From Sulfurospirillum sp. (GTDB lineage Bacteria > Campylobacterota > Campylobacteria > Campylobacterales > Arcobacteraceae): 64,000 bases of DNA. The translations under genes were made by a program, and so were the position numbers. Position 1 is the stretch's first letter, and each line of letters opens with the position of its first letter. This document shows positions 22,353 through 63,063 of this stretch, piece by piece. The stretch is taken from assembly GCA_030491005.1 (NCBI GenBank), contig JAKZMJ010000015.1, positions 310,001 to 374,000 on the forward strand, written 5' to 3'. The notes below the pieces were generated by a model that worked only from the letters and a program-made list of their open reading frames with translations, did no database searches and was not told the origin of the DNA.

Positions 22353-23450
22353 TTATAAATTATCTTTTAAGTAAAGATAATCAGACATTTTCGTCCACTC
22401 TCTTGCTTTTTTCTGAAAAGCATTTTGAGATTCTATGATTTCAGCAAATAAAGCATTTGTTTTTGATTTTTCAATCAATAATTTTTTATTAGCTTCTTTC
22501 ATAGCATTCATAACTTCTTGTGGTAAAGTTTTTACTTGAATATTAGGGTATTCTTTAGCCATTTTTGACCAAGCTTGTGCATTCATAGAATAACTTTTAA
22601 CATAAGTATCATAAGCTGTAAGTTTAATAGCAGATTTTAAGATACGTTTTAAATGTGTTGGTAGTCTATTAAATGCTTTTTCATTAACTAAATATTGTAA
22701 ATCAGTACCTGGTTCGTGCCATCCTGTATAATAATAAGGTGCAACTTTATGAAACCCCATTTTAATATCCATACCAGGGCCAACCCACTCTAAAGCATCA
22801 ATAGTCCCTCTTTGCAGTGCAGTATAAAGCTCACCTGGGGCAATGTTTGTTACAGTTACACCAAGAGAAGCCATAATTTCACCTGCAAATCCTGGGATTC
22901 TCATTTTAAGACCTTTTAAATCATCAACAGATTTAATTTCCTTTCTAAACCAGCCACCCATTTGATTTCCAGTATTTCCACCAGGAAATGACAAAACATT
23001 ATGTTTTGCATACACTTTATTAGTTAATTCTTTTCCACCACCATAAGAATACCAAGCAAAAAATTCAGGTGTAGTCATACCAAATGGCATAGTTGATATT
23101 GGCAAAGTACTTAAATCTTTACCTTTCCAATAATAAGATGCACTATGCCCCATCTCATATTGTCCACCTTTAACCATATCTAAGATACCAAAAGGACTTT
23201 TATGTTTATTTGAAGCATCAATTCTAATTATAAATTGACCACCAGACATTTCTTTTACCATTTGTGCTAATTCTTGTGATGTATCACTTAAAGGAGATAA
23301 TGTAGGACCCCATGTAGTTGCTAACTTCCATTTAAAAATTATTTTCTCTTCTTTTTGTACTTTTACTTCTTGTTTCTTTTCCGTACAAGCTGTAAATAAT
23401 AAAGCCGAAGCTAAAACCAAACTAGAAATTAGTCTTGTAGATATTCGCAT
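22353..23450 (-). CDS. TRAP-type substrate-binding lipoprotein, DctP paralogue
   Basis: 365-residue paralogue of the dctP at 18263. The N-terminus differs: ALLFTACTEKK looks like a lipobox with Cys22, so this copy is probably membrane-anchored. The binding-fold motifs (WGPTLSP, SASYYWKGKD, GNTGNQMGGWFRKEI, DALEWVGPGMD) are kept. No permease genes follow it; the next gene downstream is the sensor kinase. It could be a second receptor for DctQM or a sensory partner of the kinase. AAGGAG precedes ATG 23450. Confidence 0.87.
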   Translation of the reverse strand: MRISTRLISSLVLASALLFTACTEKKQEVKVQKEEKIIFKWKLATTWGPTLSPLSDTSQELAQMVKEMSGGQFIIRIDASNKHKSPFGILDMVKGGQYEMGHSASYYWKGKDLSTLPISTMPFGMTTPEFFAWYSYGGGKELTNKVYAKHNVLSFPGGNTGNQMGGWFRKEIKSVDDLKGLKMRIPGFAGEIMASLGVTVTNIAPGELYTALQRGTIDALEWVGPGMDIKMGFHKVAPYYYTGWHEPGTDLQYLVNEKAFNRLPTHLKRILKSAIKLTAYDTYVKSYSMNAQAWSKMAKEYPNIQVKTLPQEVMNAMKEANKKLLIEKSKTNALFAEIIESQNAFQKKAREWTKMSDYLYLKDNL

Positions 23451-23497: not shown

Positions 23498-23521
23498 TGA
23501 TGATAGTATGATATTTTTGAT
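23498..23521. promoter_or_regulatory. TATCAT-rich box upstream of dctP paralogue
   Basis: Contains TATGATATTTTT (23508-23519), the same core as the box at 19381-19408, with further ATGATA-like elements. On the minus strand a good -10 (TATAAT) follows downstream around 23480-23486. This supports joint control of both dctP genes; the binding factor is inferred. Confidence 0.35.
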
Positions 23522-24510
23522 TATTTATCAAATTTTCAGCTTTTAAGATTGATATAATCTATTATCAGATTTGTTTTATTTTGTGGCAAAAGGTCAAAAC
23601 CTATAGAGTTCAAAAATTTTAACATAATCTTTTTTTGTTCATCTATTTCTTGTGCTTCTTTTGTATTTTGTGCTATGAGTTCTTTTATGATATTTTTTGT
23701 ATTTTTAATAATATCTTTTTTTTGTTTTTCAAATTTTGATTTTTTATTATTTATTCAAAATATTAGAGTATCAAAAGAATTTATTGTTTCTAGTCCAAGT
23801 TTATTATATAAACTTGGATTTTGATTTTTAATTTGTTTTTTGATTTCTGCAAAATCTTTTCAAGAATTTTGTGCATCTTTAAAAAAAGTTAAAACTTTAG
23901 TTAATAGATTTAAATCTTCATTTATTGGATTTAATTTTTTATTTGCTTCTTTATTTATTTCTTGAATTTTATTTTTACTATTTATTTTACTTTCTAGTTT
24001 ATAATCACTTCAATTAAGACTTAAATTTCTCTTATTTTCTGTAGCTTCAATAGTAAATTTTCACTCTTTTTTTATAAGAATATTATTTTTTAAATTTACT
24101 CAATCCAAATTATTAGTTCCAAGTGTGAGCATAGCTATATTATCGACCATATTCAACTCTACTTTATCAAATTCTCTTCTTAAATTTGAGTCGAAACCTA
24201 TCGCACTATTTTTAAAATTTCAATAAGTATTAGTATTATTTTTTTGGTCATATTTTATTAAATCTTTTGCGATTGAAGTTAGTTTTAGGGGATTACTCAA
24301 TATTGCTAATATTGCATTATTAGCTTTTTCAAAATCTCCACCATTTTTAATAATAGACATTTGTTTCAGTATTTCTTTGGCTTCATCATTATTTGATATA
24401 AATTTTAAAGATGATTTTATTTCAGCTAATGCTACAAGTTTTTCACTTCCTATAACTCATTTTTTATCTTCTTTAATTCCATTATTTTTTTCTATATTTA
24501 CTTTTCTCAT
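23521..24510 (-). CDS. Open frame with eight in-frame TGA codons (UGA-reassigned code)
   Basis: Minus-strand frame from ATG 24510 to TAA 23521: 329 codons with eight TGA and no TAA or TAG. The TGA codons lie at plus positions 24457, 24220, 24100, 24061, 24010, 23860, 23755 and 23536 (first base of tca). AAGGGA precedes the ATG by about 6 bases. The frame contains no TGG and eight ordinary Gly codons. Read with TGA as Gly, Gly would be about 5 percent of residues and contexts such as D-G-V, E-G-K, N-G-S and S-G-K result. Read as Trp, Trp would be 2.4 percent. The product would be Lys/Asn-rich and mainly helical with a coiled-coil-like C-terminal half; no family was recognised. In the standard code only an 17-residue peptide is made, so it is probably silent here unless UGA is suppressed. 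Confidence 0.75.
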
Positions 24511-24610: not shown

Positions 24611-25300
24611 TTACAGTTTATCTTTTTTTAATAATGGATTTTCTCTATTATTTCGAGTAAGATATTCTAATGTAGCATTTTTTTCATCAATTTGTTTTTT
24701 ATAGTTTTTATCTAATATTTTTAAATCATCAATACTTTGCTGAGTATCTTCCTTATTTAGTCCATTTGATAATAATACTTCATATGTATTTATCATAAAT
24801 TTAATAAACTCTGAGATATTAATATTTGATATCTCATCTTTTGACATTTTTTTATATGTAAACCCATAATTGGTAAGTCCTTGCACTTCTCCTATATATA
24901 TAGTTGGGTATGGGAATTTTCTTCGTCCTTGACTATACTCCAAATTATGATTTATTTCATTTAAATAATTCATAGGATGTTCTTTTGTTTTCATTGTTTC
25001 AAACAATGCTTTGTTAAATTCATCATCATTTGTATATGTTGTTGCTTGAAATAAAGATGCTCCAATATTTGCAATATCTTCATCTCCTTTATTAAAATAG
25101 CCATCTTTTTCTAATTTTAATTGTAAAGCTTTTGCTTCTTCAAAACTCAAATTTTTAAATTTTCTTTCTTCAAAATCTCCAGTAATAAATCCATTTTCTT
25201 CCAATAGGCTATTAAACAATTTATCTACATCAATTGTTTGATTGTTAGTTACTTGTGTGTTAATATTTTGTGAAACTTGTATTGATGATTGAATTTCCAT
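24611..25300 (-). CDS. Hypothetical protein
   Basis: 229-residue soluble protein that I do not recognise. It starts with a Gln/Asn/Thr-rich stretch, has no signal peptide or membrane segment, and ends in a charged helical region. It uses the standard code (no internal TGA), in contrast to the frame just downstream. Codon usage and composition look like the chromosome. Neighbours on the same strand are the TGA-rich frame (3' side) and, across a 187-bp structured gap, a toxin-antitoxin pair. Confidence 0.6.
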   Translation of the reverse strand: MEIQSSIQVSQNINTQVTNNQTIDVDKLFNSLLEENGFITGDFEERKFKNLSFEEAKALQLKLEKDGYFNKGDEDIANIGASLFQATTYTNDDEFNKALFETMKTKEHPMNYLNEINHNLEYSQGRRKFPYPTIYIGEVQGLTNYGFTYKKMSKDEISNINISEFIKFMINTYEVLLSNGLNKEDTQQSIDDLKILDKNYKKQIDEKNATLEYLTRNNRENPLLKKDKL

Positions 25301-25487: not shown

Positions 25488-25781
25488 TTACAAGTATCTT
25501 TCAATATCTAAAGCTCCGTGAAATACACCTAATATATCTATTGTATTTTCATCTTTAATTAAATATGCAATTCTATAATGACCATAAAGTAATATTCTTA
25601 TTTCTTTATGCTCATTATTATCATAAGAGTAACCAATTCTTGGAAATAATTGTAGTATTTGAACTTTTTGATATATTTCTGTTACAACTTTTTTTGCAAT
25701 TATTTTTTTATCTAAAGCTATATAATCATATATATCTTTAAGCCAAAGGTCTGCTTCATCTGTCCAGTTGATATCTACCAT
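25488..25781 (-). CDS. ParE/RelE-family toxin
   Basis: 97-residue toxin of the RelE/ParE superfamily: NWTDEADLWLKDIYDYI at the start and RILLYGHYRIAYLIKDENTIDILGVFHGALD near the end are typical. ParE members act on gyrase, RelE members on mRNA; the C-terminal pattern is closer to ParE. It overlaps its antitoxin by 7 bp. The pair stands alone among remnants of mobile DNA. Confidence 0.85.
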   Translation of the reverse strand: MVDINWTDEADLWLKDIYDYIALDKKIIAKKVVTEIYQKVQILQLFPRIGYSYDNNEHKEIRILLYGHYRIAYLIKDENTIDILGVFHGALDIERYL

Positions 25782-25951
25782 TGTTTAATTCTATTTTTCA
25801 TCTCTTGATTTGAAATAGTTTTATTATCTTCTGAATCTTTTAATCCTCTTTGAATCATTCTATCAAAAGCTAACTCTTTTAATATTTCATCATAAGATGT
25901 ATCTTCGGGTAATGAATCAATAATTTTTCTTGCTTGTTGCGGTGCTGTCAT
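25775..25951 (-). CDS. Antitoxin of ParE-type module
   Basis: 58-residue partner upstream of and overlapping the toxin. I start at ATG 25951 because TTGGAG sits 8 bases upstream; a TTG at 25963 is actually part of that ribosome site. The protein (MTAPQQARKIIDSLPEDTSYDEIL...) is of the short addiction-module type that pairs with ParE-like toxins. No clear ribbon-helix-helix motif was seen. Confidence 0.75.
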   Translation of the reverse strand: MTAPQQARKIIDSLPEDTSYDEILKELAFDRMIQRGLKDSEDNKTISNQEMKNRIKQW

Positions 25952-26026
25952 AATAAACTCCAATATTTAGAATATACATCATTTTAACAAAATGAGGCTT
26001 AATGAAAAATTCAGGGGTCTGATTTA

Positions 26027-26635
26027 TCACTTTTTCTTATAACTAACAAGATAATCATCAAGCATTTTTAACTTCAAACTTTTAGTAACACCATTATGTA
26101 TTTTTATAAGTTTTTTCATAGGTGAAAACACTCCACCATCTATAGAATTTGTAGTATTATGTATAGTAATATTTCTATGATTTTTATAAGTAAAAAGGTA
26201 AGGTAGATTAGTTATTAAACTTCTGTATGCAGACCTAACTCTTGGATGAGTAAAATTCAATTTACCTGTAGTTGGAGATATTGACTTTTCATCTAAAAAA
26301 CCTTTATATATTTTGTACCATTCATCTAACTTTTTGCTAAAATTCTTTTGATTTGTACTTGTTAAGTTATACATTATTTTTTGTAAATCTTTACTAGCTT
26401 GTAGTCTAGGTTTTCTAGTTAAATATTTATTGATTGTTTTTCTTTGATGAAAGTGGCACATCTGAGTTGGATAGTCTTTAAAAGCTTTATATAAGCCTCT
26501 CTTACCATCAATTATAATTGCTTGCCTTTGTATCCTAATTCTACTAGCAAGTCTAAATGCTGCTTGTAATCAAATACTAATTCGCTATCAATATGTTTCC
26601 AAGTTAGTATCTCTTTTGATATAGGGCACCTCTAA
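26027..26635 (-). pseudogene. DDE (MULE-like) transposase remnant
   Basis: Only the C-terminal part is left. In one frame, IIIDGKRGLYKAF...PTQMCHFHQRKTI carries a catalytic Asp region and the CHFHQ motif. Upstream at about 26510-26600, TWKHIDSEL...HLDLLVELGYKG lies in another frame, so at least one frameshift is present. The whole N-terminus is missing. The C-terminal piece (26027-26461) is still open. It resembles MULE-type IS256/IS1249-like transposases. The 185 bp beyond (26636-26820) holds only AT-rich sequence and a possible element end. Confidence 0.7.
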
Positions 26636-54866: not shown

Positions 54867-57313
54867 TACATATAATTTAAATTATCAAGTTTATCATCAA
54901 TAATATTCTCACTATTTAATACTTCATTAGATAAAGTTTTTTCCTCTTTTTTATTTTTATTATCACTTGTATTTGATGAATTTTCTTTATTCATATTAAA
55001 ATCTAAACTAAATGAAGTATTATTATTAAATGTTTTATTTAAAGAATCTTTTAGACTTTGTTGATTTTCTATAAGGGCATCTAATGTATTTGTATTTGAC
55101 ATATTCATACTAATACTAATGCCATTTTCTTTATCATTTTTCATAATAATAGCAATGCTTCCCATTTGTGATGGAAAAATATTAATTCTAAATGACGTAA
55201 GAGGTGCTTTATAATTTACATACATTTTTTTAGCAAGTTCGGACATCATAGAAGACACACCTTGCTTGGCACCAATAATTTTACTTTGTATGCTAAGAGC
55301 TAAAGAAGGAGATATATTTAGATTAATTACTTTTTCACTATCTGTCGAATTATTTTTATTATTTGTGATTTTAATGTTTTCATTTGTACTATTTATGTTT
55401 TCTTGTGTTTGTTTTTTTAAAATAGTTTGATTTAGTACTATTTTATTTAATAAATTTTTTTGTAAGTTCTGTTTATGTTCATATGTTTTAATATCAACTT
55501 TCATATCTTGCATATTTAAATTCATAATTTTTGCACTTTCTTTTATATCGCTTTTTGAAGTGATATTTTTAACAAGTTTATCTTTAATATTTTTATTTTG
55601 TAATACCTGATTATTGATAAAGTTATTTTGTGTACCTAGATATATTTTGCCTAAAACATCTTTTTTATTAATATTTATTTTATTTATACCTATATCTTCT
55701 TTTTCTATTTCATTAAGTAAACTAATTACTTTTTTTGTAATTTTAGTATCTTTATGTTCTTGCTTTATATTATCATCTACAATTTGTTTTGTTTGGTATT
55801 TTTCTTCTTGATGATTTTTTGTAGTATTTTGATTTAATACTTCAGTTACAGAATTATTTGTTTCTTTTTTGCCCAACTTTGTATTGACTTTTATCATTTG
55901 TATATTTTCTAGTTTGTTAGTACTTATGGTATCATTTTTATTTATTATAGTTTTACTTGTATTTTCTTCACTTATGATATCACTTTTTATTATTATATTT
56001 TTACTTGTATTTTCTTCATTTGTTTGCTCTGCTTTTATGTCTTTATTGATAATAGGCATTTGTTTATTAGCTTTGTTTAGCAATGTTGCATCTATTGCTT
56101 TTTTAACAAGTATTGGATTGTCTTTATTTAGAACATTGTTTTTTTGCTTAATATTTTCTGGTTTAATTTCAATATTTGTTTTTTTAATAAGACCAATTTC
56201 TTTTTTTATGTCTACGGGTTTATCTTTTTTTCCACTAATAGCTAGATTTTTTATTGCTACTTTGCTTAGTTCTTTTGTATTTTTATCATTGTTTTTTATA
56301 TTTACTATGTCTTGATTTACCTTTTCAAGTTTGTTTGTTTGTTTTGGAACTATTTTATTCGTACTAGAAGAAGTATCCTTTTTAATCACTTCTACGCTTA
56401 AGCCTGTTTGTTTTGTAGTTAATTTCTTATTAGAAATATTTTCTAAAGCAAGTTCTTGTTTAGTAGTTATTGTCTTTGTGTCAATAGTAGAAGTAGCTTT
56501 TTTTACCTCTTCTTGTTTGTTAAGTTTTGGTGTATCTTTATTTGAAACATTCGTTTCTAAAATGTTACTCTTAGGTAAAATTGTATTTTTTATTTTTCCT
56601 ATACTAGCTTTTTTATTTTTAGAAATATTTTCTAAAGAAAGTTCTTCTTTATTATTTATTATTTTTGTTTCAATTGAAGAAGTAGCTTTTCGTACGTCTT
56701 CTTGTTTTTTGGATTTTGGTGTGGTATTGTTTGTCATATTATTTAGGGTATTTGTTTTTATAATCTTATTATCCAATAAATCTACATTTTTTATTATTTT
56801 AATTTTTTGTAAATCATTTGTACTTGTATTTTGTGTATTTAAATTTTTTGAATTTTCTATTTTGGATTGTATTATTAGCTTATCTAAAGAGTAGTTTGCT
56901 TTTTGCTTAGGCATTTTAGTCTTGTTATCAAGTTTTGTAAGGTTTTTTACATCTTCTGATTTAGGGTTTTTTATAAGTTTTTCTTTCTTTTCATTTGTTT
57001 TACTTAGGACTTCATTATTATCTAATTTTTTTTCTAATTGTGGCATATCATTTTTACTTATCATTTTTAATATATTTATTTGTTTATTTTTTAAGGATAC
57101 ATTAGCATCAGCATTTGTGTTCGTGTTTCCATTATTTTTAATAATTTTTACATTTACAATATCTTTTTTTGTATTTGCTATTACACCTATATCTTTTTTT
57201 GCCTCTTTTAATAATTGATCAAAAAGTGAAAGACTTTTATTTTCAGTTTTACTTACAATATTCTTTGTATTGCTTGAAGGAGTAAATAATTCAGTAGTAA
57301 TTTTTTTTGTCAT
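54866..57313 (-). CDS. fliK: Flagellar hook-length control protein FliK
   Basis: 815 residues. The long N-terminal part is Lys/Asn/Thr-rich and disordered, with internal repeats such as KQEDVRKATSS...ELSLENIS / KQEEVKKATST...ELALENIS and EENTSKNII / EENTSKTII. The C-terminal domain (APLTSFRINIFPSQMGSIAIIM ... NQQSLKDSL) matches the FliK core that contacts FlhB. The long ruler region fits a molecular-tape role. Confidence 0.82.
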   Translation of the reverse strand: MTKKITTELFTPSSNTKNIVSKTENKSLSLFDQLLKEAKKDIGVIANTKKDIVNVKIIKNNGNTNTNADANVSLKNKQINILKMISKNDMPQLEKKLDNNEVLSKTNEKKEKLIKNPKSEDVKNLTKLDNKTKMPKQKANYSLDKLIIQSKIENSKNLNTQNTSTNDLQKIKIIKNVDLLDNKIIKTNTLNNMTNNTTPKSKKQEDVRKATSSIETKIINNKEELSLENISKNKKASIGKIKNTILPKSNILETNVSNKDTPKLNKQEEVKKATSTIDTKTITTKQELALENISNKKLTTKQTGLSVEVIKKDTSSSTNKIVPKQTNKLEKVNQDIVNIKNNDKNTKELSKVAIKNLAISGKKDKPVDIKKEIGLIKKTNIEIKPENIKQKNNVLNKDNPILVKKAIDATLLNKANKQMPIINKDIKAEQTNEENTSKNIIIKSDIISEENTSKTIINKNDTISTNKLENIQMIKVNTKLGKKETNNSVTEVLNQNTTKNHQEEKYQTKQIVDDNIKQEHKDTKITKKVISLLNEIEKEDIGINKININKKDVLGKIYLGTQNNFINNQVLQNKNIKDKLVKNITSKSDIKESAKIMNLNMQDMKVDIKTYEHKQNLQKNLLNKIVLNQTILKKQTQENINSTNENIKITNNKNNSTDSEKVINLNISPSLALSIQSKIIGAKQGVSSMMSELAKKMYVNYKAPLTSFRINIFPSQMGSIAIIMKNDKENGISISMNMSNTNTLDALIENQQSLKDSLNKTFNNNTSFSLDFNMNKENSSNTSDNKNKKEEKTLSNEVLNSENIIDDKLDNLNYM

Positions 57314-60854: not shown

Positions 60855-61218
60855 TTAAAGACCCTCCATTATTTTGAGTAATCTCTTCAACAATTTCTTG
60901 ATACATTTGCTTAAGTGGTAATACAATTGAGGCTAAGGAGTGATTTAATTCATATAAGGCTTTAAGCTTTTTTTCTAAATCATCTATATTATTTTTAAAT
61001 ATGTTTATATCAACACCTTCTTGCATTTGTTTAGCTATTTCTTCATTTAATTGTTGTTTTAATGAAGTTATGTTGTTTATCATAACTTGTTTCAAATCAT
61101 TTCTATTTAATAATTCTTCATTTTGTGCATTTTTAATATCTTCAATATCTTCTTTAATGGCAGTACTTAGTTTTGATATTAAAGTCGTCATTTCATTAAT
61201 TATGTTTTTTATCATCAC
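60838..61218 (-). CDS. FlgN-like flagellar chaperone
   Basis: 126-residue helical protein with long coiled coils and a terminal SLIDIKA typical of FlgN-type export chaperones for FlgK and FlgL. It overlaps the FlgA-like gene by 17 bp and is 9 bp from the FlgJ-like gene. Identification rests on length, helix pattern and the end motif. Confidence 0.6.
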   Translation of the reverse strand: MMIKNIINEMTTLISKLSTAIKEDIEDIKNAQNEELLNRNDLKQVMINNITSLKQQLNEEIAKQMQEGVDINIFKNNIDDLEKKLKALYELNHSLASIVLPLKQMYQEIVEEITQNNGGSLIDIKA

Positions 61219-61227
61219 ATTACTTTC

Positions 61228-61530
61228 TTATTTATTATTTTGTGTCAAAAACTCATATAGCATAGTACTTATGCCTACAGCCCCTTTGGATTGTTGTGCT
61301 ATTGAATTTGTATACATACCTTTTATTATATCAGAACCAGTTCCCTCACCTGAAACTTTTGTATTTTTTAATGAAATATCTAATAATTGTTGCATAAAAA
61401 ATGATTCAAAATCATTGCATACTTTTTTTAATTCTTTATTTTCTAATTTAGAAAAATCATTATTTTTATACTTTAGGCTTTCATCTGCTTTAATAGTATT
61501 TATGTCAACAAAATTTGTATTTAAATTCAT
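61228..61530 (-). CDS. FlgJ-like rod-binding protein
   Basis: 100 residues corresponding to the N-terminal rod-binding domain of FlgJ: KKVCNDFESFFMQQLLDISLK and MYTNSIAQQSKGAVGISTML. The muramidase domain found in gammaproteobacterial FlgJ is absent, as is usual in Campylobacterota. It is 3 bp downstream of motB. Confidence 0.8.
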   Translation of the reverse strand: MNLNTNFVDINTIKADESLKYKNNDFSKLENKELKKVCNDFESFFMQQLLDISLKNTKVSGEGTGSDIIKGMYTNSIAQQSKGAVGISTMLYEFLTQNNK

Positions 61531-61533
61531 AAC

Positions 61534-62304
61534 TTACTCCAATCTATCAAAAAAATTTTCTTCTTCTAAAATATCTTCTTGCGAATCTTGTGCAAAGAAT
61601 CGAATTTCAACTCTTCTGTTTTCAGATTCTATCTCACTTTTAGGACGAAAAGATGAAAATGCAGATATTTTTAGTAAACTAGGATTAATTTTATTTTTAA
61701 TTAATTCTTGAACTACTGATATTGCTCTTAAAGCTGAGAGATCCCAATTGTTTCTTGGTAAACTATTTGATTTAAAATCATTATTTTGTGTATGACCACT
61801 TACTTCAATATGAAGTGTTTGTGGTATTGTTCTAATGATTCTTGATATTTTAGTAATAAACTTTTTTGTTGCTTTATTTTTTACTTTATATTCATTTTCA
61901 TCAAATAAAATTGTAGATGGAATATCAAGAATAAATTCATTTTTACTTTTTTCAATTGACATATTTTCATCATTATCAGAAGTAGAGTCATTCATTTCTT
62001 CCATTATTTCTGTTATTTCTTCAAGAGCAGTTTCTAAGCCTTCTTCTTTCGTATCTTCTGCATCTGAGCTTGTGTTATCTTGAGTTGAATGAGCTTCACT
62101 TTGTGTTTCAACAGAAGTTGTTGAATCTAAAAAACCCATAGCTTTTTTCATAATCTCAAAATATTCTTCAACTTTTGTTTTATCCATTACAGCCATAGAT
62201 AATAATAAAATAAAAAATGTAAGTAATAAGGACATCAAGTCCCCAAATTGAACTAACCATCCTGGTAAACATCTAGGGCATTCAGGACATTTATTTTTTG
62301 CCAT
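61534..62304 (-). CDS. motB: Flagellar stator protein MotB/PomB
   Basis: 256 residues. One membrane helix carries the ion-binding Asp22 (QFGDLMSLLLTFFILLLSM), and the C-terminal OmpA-like peptidoglycan-binding domain has EVSGHTQNND and RRVEIRF. The Cys-rich N-terminus (CPECPRC) and the FGDLMSLL context are closer to PomB than to E. coli MotB, so sodium may be the coupling ion. It is 3 bp after motA. Confidence 0.92.
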   Translation of the reverse strand: MAKNKCPECPRCLPGWLVQFGDLMSLLLTFFILLLSMAVMDKTKVEEYFEIMKKAMGFLDSTTSVETQSEAHSTQDNTSSDAEDTKEEGLETALEEITEIMEEMNDSTSDNDENMSIEKSKNEFILDIPSTILFDENEYKVKNKATKKFITKISRIIRTIPQTLHIEVSGHTQNNDFKSNSLPRNNWDLSALRAISVVQELIKNKINPSLLKISAFSSFRPKSEIESENRRVEIRFFAQDSQEDILEEENFFDRLE

Positions 62305-62307
62305 TAT

Positions 62308-63063
62308 TTACTCATTGTTTCCGACTAAAATAGCATTTAATTGCATTTTAATATTACCTATTGATTCCTCAGCTGCAATCATAGATGAACCGTGTATTAT
62401 AACTTCATATGCTGTTACTTCCACGTTATGCTTTTGTGTTAATTTACTTTCAATAATTCCTGCAAATAATGTTCCAATTAAAGCTCCATACATCGTAGTT
62501 AATAAAGCAACTGCCATAGCTGGTCCAACAGCAGCTGGATCAGATAGATTAGCAAGCATGGCTACTAAACCAACCAAGGTACCAATCATTCCCATAGCAC
62601 CTGCTGTTCCCCCAATACTAGCAAAAATAGCAATCATCGCACCATGTCTTTTCCCAATATGCTCTAGTTTTAATTCTAATAAAGGTTGCAGGGTTTCTGC
62701 TCTAGTACCATCAACTAATAACTGAAAGGCTTCTTGGAAAAAAGGGTCTGGTTCTTCTAATATCTTTTGTTCAATATGCATAACACCGTGTTTTTTAATT
62801 TCTGTTGCATAAAAAATAATCTTTTCAACTAATTCAGGTAAGGGTTCAACATTTACTACATTCATTGACGCCTTAATAGCAGCACCAATTCTTTTTAAAT
62901 CGGCTATTTCAAATTGACCAGCTGTAACAGCAGATGTCCCACCAATTACAATAATAACAGAAGGAACATCAAGATAAGGACCAAAACCAACACCACCTAA
63001 TACAATTGCAAGACCAACTAAAGCCCACCCAATTCCTAATCCACCTGCTGTACTTTTATCCAT
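62308..63063 (-). CDS. motA: Flagellar stator protein MotA/PomA
   Basis: 251 residues with four membrane helices. The region VPSVIIVIGGTSAV and the late AIFASIGGTAGAMGMIGTLVGLVAML ... AVALLTTMYGALIGT are typical of PomA-like subunits. The cytoplasmic loop interacts with FliG. It forms the stator with the adjacent motB product. Confidence 0.93.
   Translation of the reverse strand: MDKSTAGGLGIGWALVGLAIVLGGVGFGPYLDVPSVIIVIGGTSAVTAGQFEIADLKRIGAAIKASMNVVNVEPLPELVEKIIFYATEIKKHGVMHIEQKILEEPDPFFQEAFQLLVDGTRAETLQPLLELKLEHIGKRHGAMIAIFASIGGTAGAMGMIGTLVGLVAMLANLSDPAAVGPAMAVALLTTMYGALIGTLFAGIIESKLTQKHNVEVTAYEVIIHGSSMIAAEESIGNIKMQLNAILVGNNE

Follow-up and report, generated by a model that had tools for sequence, protein, structure and literature searches.

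The window frame and its surroundings

The window, by which we mean the whole stretch of 64,000 nucleotides analysed (G000:C15:310001-374000), comes from a 33-contig draft genome of 2.69 Mb with 3.4% contamination, whose gene content points to an Arcobacteraceae-like host within the Campylobacterota. On its minus strand, 333-335 kb into a 496-kb contig, lies a frame of 329 codons that starts with ATG, ends with TAA and contains eight in-frame TGA. The flanking genes use the standard code; thus the frame does lie within a standard-code chromosome, as a sequence-only reading of the window had stated. The features of the locus are as follows.

22353-23450, minus strand: native standard-code gene for a DctP-type solute-binding protein, conserved in a sister genome and adjoining the junction
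23521-23545, no strand: insertion junction of the relic, placed by sister-genome versus family homology
23521-24510, minus strand: truncated code-25 (TGA = Gly) frame of 329 codons, from a Gracilibacteria protein family
23536-23538, minus strand: in-frame TGA, residue 325, near the insertion junction
23755-23757, minus strand: in-frame TGA, residue 252
23860-23862, minus strand: in-frame TGA, residue 217
24010-24012, minus strand: in-frame TGA, residue 167; homologs have GGN Gly in 7 cases and TGA in 6
24061-24063, minus strand: in-frame TGA, residue 150; 12 homologs likewise have TGA
24100-24102, minus strand: in-frame TGA, residue 137; GGN Gly in 10 aligned homologs
24220-24222, minus strand: in-frame TGA, residue 97
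24457-24459, minus strand: in-frame TGA, residue 18
24611-25300, minus strand: standard-code ORF of 229 aa upstream of the relic, without in-frame TGA and without a family match

No TAA or TAG precedes the terminal TAA, and TGG is absent from the frame. For this stretch a first-order Markov model (400 simulations) predicted 20.8 TAA, 4.3 TAG and 8.6 TGA per 329 codons, that is, about 25 TAA and TAG where none is observed, and not one of the 400 simulations was free of both. The codon counts of the sequence-only reading were thereby confirmed. Nevertheless, openness alone cannot settle whether the frame is recoded, because two long frames of the same window that run antisense to standard genes (61001-62812 and 55266-56894, both on the plus strand) are equally open, with 6-7 TGA and no TAA or TAG. 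Frames that are open in code 25 can come from antisense composition, and it is the homologs that decide.

Comparison with homologs of 488-703 aa indicates that the window copy is truncated at both ends, with about 143 N-terminal and about 80 C-terminal residues gone; it aligns with residues 144-463 of the 545-residue protein of the relative G057. Window and sister genome G001 are 88-89% identical over the DctP gene and on into the intergenic region, up to about position 23526 and with gaps out to 23545, and family homology begins at 23527. Since the two homologies meet at about 23526/23527, the TAA of the frame (23521-23523) is native host intergenic DNA. The ATG, a ribosome site and this TAA had been taken as marks of a real gene, an argument that fails with the loss of both ends, and the statement that a decayed gene would not look like this was too strong: truncation has produced a decayed gene whose frame remained open. 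Relatives of the relaxase and of the 131-aa family described below were not found in the window genome, which lacks the combination of relaxase, integrase and att sites of an integrative mobilisable element. On these comparisons the window copy is a lone truncated relic, not an intact gene.

Homologs in two phyla and the reading of UGA

Six other Campylobacterota genomes carry homologs of the window frame, with 9-22 in-frame TGA. A search of 150 relatives found a homolog in the complete chromosome of G057 that is 49% identical and has 545 codons with 11 TGA and, in G082, a distant homolog with 530 codons and 22 TGA. An order-wide search added, from other families, G217 (13 TGA), G421 (18) and G166 (9), and a Sulfurimonas MAG, NORP87, has a homolog with 18. 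Weak matches in G029, G143, G036 and G749, all free of in-frame TGA, were put down to chance. Genome contigs searched with the single window sequence gave no match; with the family alignment as query, matches were obtained in MAGs of Sulfuricurvum, Sulfurimonas (NORP87) and Sulfurovum (FS08-3) and in Candidatus Gracilibacteria PBR18_bin29. The class of the latter, made up of tiny and probably host-dependent bacteria, has the family in 27 of 353 genomes, and almost all of these matches contain in-frame TGA. The Gracilibacteria copies have native code-25 surroundings and in some genomes stand several side by side. At two such loci (G547:C52 and G561:C52) the neighbours of the family are large proteins whose N-terminus is similarly short, and one of these genomes has the family in repeated copies; such proteins might form a Gracilibacteria-specific class concerned with secretion or the cell surface.

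In a tree of the family the copies from Campylobacterota are nested among those from Gracilibacteria, in at least three groups: G082, G217, G421 and NORP87 (100/100), the window and G057 (100/100), and G166 alone, on a long branch. Branches starred in this tree force two changes. With at least three nested groups, either there would have been several entries from the Gracilibacteria side, or the elements that carry these genes may have had their own history there. The proposal that the frame is of Gracilibacteria type, for which a homolog search including CPR genomes had been recommended, was thus borne out by that search.

The family has no match in Pfam, PHROGs or NCBIfam, and no homolog in phage and plasmid collections or viral contigs; with neither a PHROGs match nor a phage record, the window frame does not present itself as a gene of an alternatively coded phage. 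The AlphaFold model is helical (pLDDT 73, pTM 0.45), and a fold search of the PDB with it returned nothing below E 0.3.

Of the residues that face TGA in the family alignment, Gly shows the strongest enrichment (5.8-fold). Pairs of the recoded serine recombinases described below give the same picture, with TGA facing either TGA or, among non-TGA codons, mostly GGN; for G082 against G564 there are 17 TGA-TGA, 6 TGA-GGN and 3 other pairs. The recoded genes use TGA at 3.8%, GGN at 1.3-1.5% and TGG at 0.6-0.8%, while the standard genes of the same elements have no TGA in 12,167 codons, GGN at 3.9-4.3% and TGG at 0.6%. We reject a mollicute-type code with UGA as Trp, which had been offered as the alternative and which the lack of TGG in the window frame would suit: only one of the 2026 aligned cells has Trp facing TGA, and with this assignment it would reach about 4.4% in recoded genes in which TGG is already at a normal rate. 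UGA in the recoded genes is Gly, as had been preferred from the letters alone, and not Trp. With TGA at Gly positions, beside GGN, and with the closest homologs and recombinases native to Gracilibacteria, these genes resemble those of code-25 Gracilibacteria and Absconditabacteria; unlike them, they are integrated in standard-code Campylobacterota chromosomes.

Elements with genes in two codes

Integrated elements that include the window family were found at about 565-596 kb of the G057 chromosome and at 376226-404074 of a 1.05-Mb contig of G082. The G082 element is bounded by a 42-bp exact direct repeat of a tRNA-Arg 3' end (376226/404033), the distal copy of which adjoins a standard-code tyrosine integrase gene (402769-403902). 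For the G057 element there is a 21-bp candidate repeat (564986/596300). The standard-code set of both elements comprises a relaxase (PF03432), a MobC-like protein (PF05713, with a match just under the cut-off), a VirD4-like coupling protein (PF02534), a DnaJ-like protein, an HTH protein and a tyrosine integrase (PF00589). The code-25 set comprises a large serine recombinase (23 and 20 TGA), two small proteins of 131/125 aa and 135/144 aa, and the window family. TGA is absent throughout from the genes for relaxase, MobC, coupling protein and tyrosine integrase. The same partition of genes between codes was seen in G421 (contig C14), G137, G217 and NORP87, within reach of their contigs: all recoded homologs have in-frame TGA and the standard homologs have none, with the lone exception, among the matches listed, of one TGA in a gapped alignment. 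In G276 two recoded genes lie at a contig edge.

With relaxase, MobC, coupling protein, integrase and att repeats, the elements of G057 and G082 are integrative mobilisable elements, classed as mobilisable only. They share with known elements of this kind the MOB relaxase, MobC, the VirD4-like coupling protein and a tyrosine integrase at a tRNA, all in the standard code, and the tRNA-Arg repeats; unlike these, they hold a second, recoded gene set that includes a second integrase of the serine type. Taken singly, relaxase, coupling protein and integrases belong to known kinds. It is the split between two codes for which we know of no precedent, and a limited search of the open-access literature found no earlier description of a mixed-code element. 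A transfer or a selfish element had been among the explanations first put forward; the involvement of an element holds, although the mixing of both codes within it was not foreseen.

It is scarcely conceivable that these loci are assembly chimeras or contaminating Gracilibacteria contigs. Several of the source genomes are MAGs, and the window genome is itself a contaminated draft; nevertheless, recoded genes are present in the complete 3.27-Mb chromosome of G057, on the 1.05-Mb contig with its exact att repeats, and on contigs of 428 and 496 kb, and they are interleaved with standard genes. These independent occurrences exclude the chimeric assembly that had been considered for the window.

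Between G057 and G082 the standard genes are 71% (coupling protein), 58% (relaxase), 72% (MobC-like), 90% (DnaJ-like) and 43% (integrase) identical, and the small recoded genes 71% (131/125 aa) and 48% (135/144 aa). The window-family genes are 29% identical and the recombinases 25%; these two have differing histories. dN/dS was 0.30 for the recoded 131/125-aa pair (pS 0.42), which is short and offers little sequence for judging co-divergence, and 0.26 for the coupling protein (pS 0.49), values that indicate purifying selection of similar strength. The simplest reading is that the recoded and standard sets were inherited jointly and that function was kept in both.

The recoded recombinases have the Resolvase catalytic and Recombinase domains (PF00239 and PF07508) of large serine recombinases and are 58-71% identical to Gracilibacteria ones: that of G082 is 70.6% identical to the recombinase of G564, and that of G057 60.9% to that of G553. 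In the relatives of the G057 recombinase in G553, G561, G528 and G536 the 3' end of the gene is continuous with that of a tRNA gene, mostly tRNA-Glu(CTC); tRNA genes were likewise called beside the recombinases of G543 and G551. The fusion reads TTTTGGTACTCC..., the reverse complement of ...GGAGTACCA, and such fusions have the look of junctions formed by integration. In G057, homology extends to the same core, TTTTGGTACT, and then passes into non-tRNA DNA; its candidate attP region is TTTTGGTACTTCTGAGAGC, and the junction there is unrecombined. A Gracilibacteria copy, G545:C20, likewise has no tRNA at that point, and none of the host tRNAs of G057 ends in AGTACC. In a second recombinase subfamily there is a less clear break, at a comparable core, TGGTGG. 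The domains and the fusion of gene and tRNA 3' end in Gracilibacteria are as in tRNA-integrating large serine recombinases; unlike those, the Campylobacterota copy is unreadable in its host and its att junction is unrecombined. Such is the appearance to be expected of an element that used one integrase to enter Campylobacterota and the other to enter Gracilibacteria.

Proposed origin of the relic and decoding of the recoded genes

An altered genetic code is widely thought to bar gene exchange for a lineage. We suggest, with a probability of roughly 0.6, that the window frame is a relic of a code-25 gene from Gracilibacteria and that it arrived most likely by way of a bilingual integrative mobilisable element. 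The genes for transfer and chromosomal integration (MobA/P-type relaxase, MobC, VirD4-like coupling protein, and tyrosine integrase acting at a tRNA), being in the standard code, would work in Campylobacterota; the serine recombinase, the two small proteins and the helical 530-545-aa family would be full-length only where UGA is Gly. Excision from the Campylobacterota chromosome would be the work of the tyrosine integrase. Relaxase and coupling protein would then nick the excised element and hand it over, through a secretion channel provided in trans, to an adjacent Gracilibacteria cell, where the recoded recombinase would be translated and would insert the element at the 3' end of a tRNA; a return to Campylobacterota would close the cycle. 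Transfer, expression in Gracilibacteria and direction of movement are inferred. Campylobacterota and Gracilibacteria have been found in the same sulfide-spring biofilms, as co-occurrence only (PMC10811913).

Passive capture, in which lysed or attached Gracilibacteria cells are a repeated source of DNA for Campylobacterota mobile elements and the recoded genes are dead cargo bound to decay, is a less probable but still plausible minority reading. It would account for the truncated window copy, the frame-broken copy of G137, the copies of G166 and the window that stand alone, and the three or more independent entries on the tree. It also fits the fact that an intact bilingual element was not seen in Gracilibacteria, where the standard-code relaxase was found in 0 of 59 genomes. 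Dead cargo does not explain, however, why, in several genera, elements have the same small recoded genes close to the same standard ones, why recoded genes diverge in step with the backbone at a dN/dS near 0.3, or why recoded genes of up to 545 codons are free of TAA, TAG and frameshifts.

The bilingual element as we propose it might also hold a code-locked payload, mute in Campylobacterota and active in attached Gracilibacteria, the lock serving either a two-host cycle or defence against epibionts; this extension is doubtful.

Long-term constraint could be explained without a second host if Campylobacterota themselves read UGA as Gly in these genes, with the help of a cryptic suppressor tRNA or in special circumstances; this would be a translational switch of the kind proposed for recoded phages. 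Recoded phages are known from standard-code hosts (PMC10746230). We regard such decoding as very unlikely. TGA is absent from the standard genes of these elements, and neither ARAGORN nor Rfam found a tRNA gene in the elements. The look-up of UCA-anticodon tRNAs that had been recommended gave only tRNA-Sec in the complete G057 chromosome, which has tRNA-Gly(TCC), likewise only tRNA-Sec in the window genome, and none in G082. No UCA tRNA-Gly was thus seen in host or element, but these results have no positive control, as the same tools also showed no UCA tRNA in the Gracilibacteria draft G553 or in 0.73 Mb of Gracilibacteria loci.

The nearest parallel to the bilingual element is provided by alternatively coded phages and CPR-targeted phages compatible with code 11, in which the codes of entity and host differ and a cross-code host range has been proposed (PMC10746230). 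Certain phages are targeted by CPR and non-CPR spacers alike, code-11-compatible phages of Gracilibacteria exist, and the Gracilibacteria prophages found in that study were all code 25 (PMC10746230). Those phages are single-code or code-neutral, whereas the elements described here are non-phage, split gene by gene, and gave no match for a suppressor tRNA. If the proposal is true, an element with two mutually unreadable gene sets would be a natural route across the code barrier, Campylobacterota would be indicated as partners of uncultured Gracilibacteria, and serine integrases with att sites readable from sequence would be at hand. At the Gracilibacteria loci L107, L111, L115, L118, L147, L155 and L247, tRNA-Glu(CTC) lies at the 3' end of large serine recombinases, whose genes read into it, and the 3' end of this tRNA looks like a common integration site in Gracilibacteria.

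Some minor observations concern the window and its relatives. Near the relic, at 25488-25963, a ParE-type toxin gene (PF05016) and a small upstream partner are likely a type II toxin-antitoxin pair. Positions 25989-26400 are repeated at about 100% identity in at least three more places in the genome (C15:492938, C2:164767 and C1:97545) and elsewhere at 75-89%; this repeat, which overlaps an ORF at 26027-26461, is probably a transposase remnant. The window genome has two tRNA-Sec genes (C23:143-233 and C7:12-103), one of them on a 5-kb contig, and tRNA-Leu/Ser pairs duplicated on C15 and C23, which may reflect a strain mixture or real duplication. In G057 (C1:891250-891550) ARAGORN called a 93-nt tRNA with a CUA anticodon, labelled Pyl, which is probably a mis-called serine tRNA.
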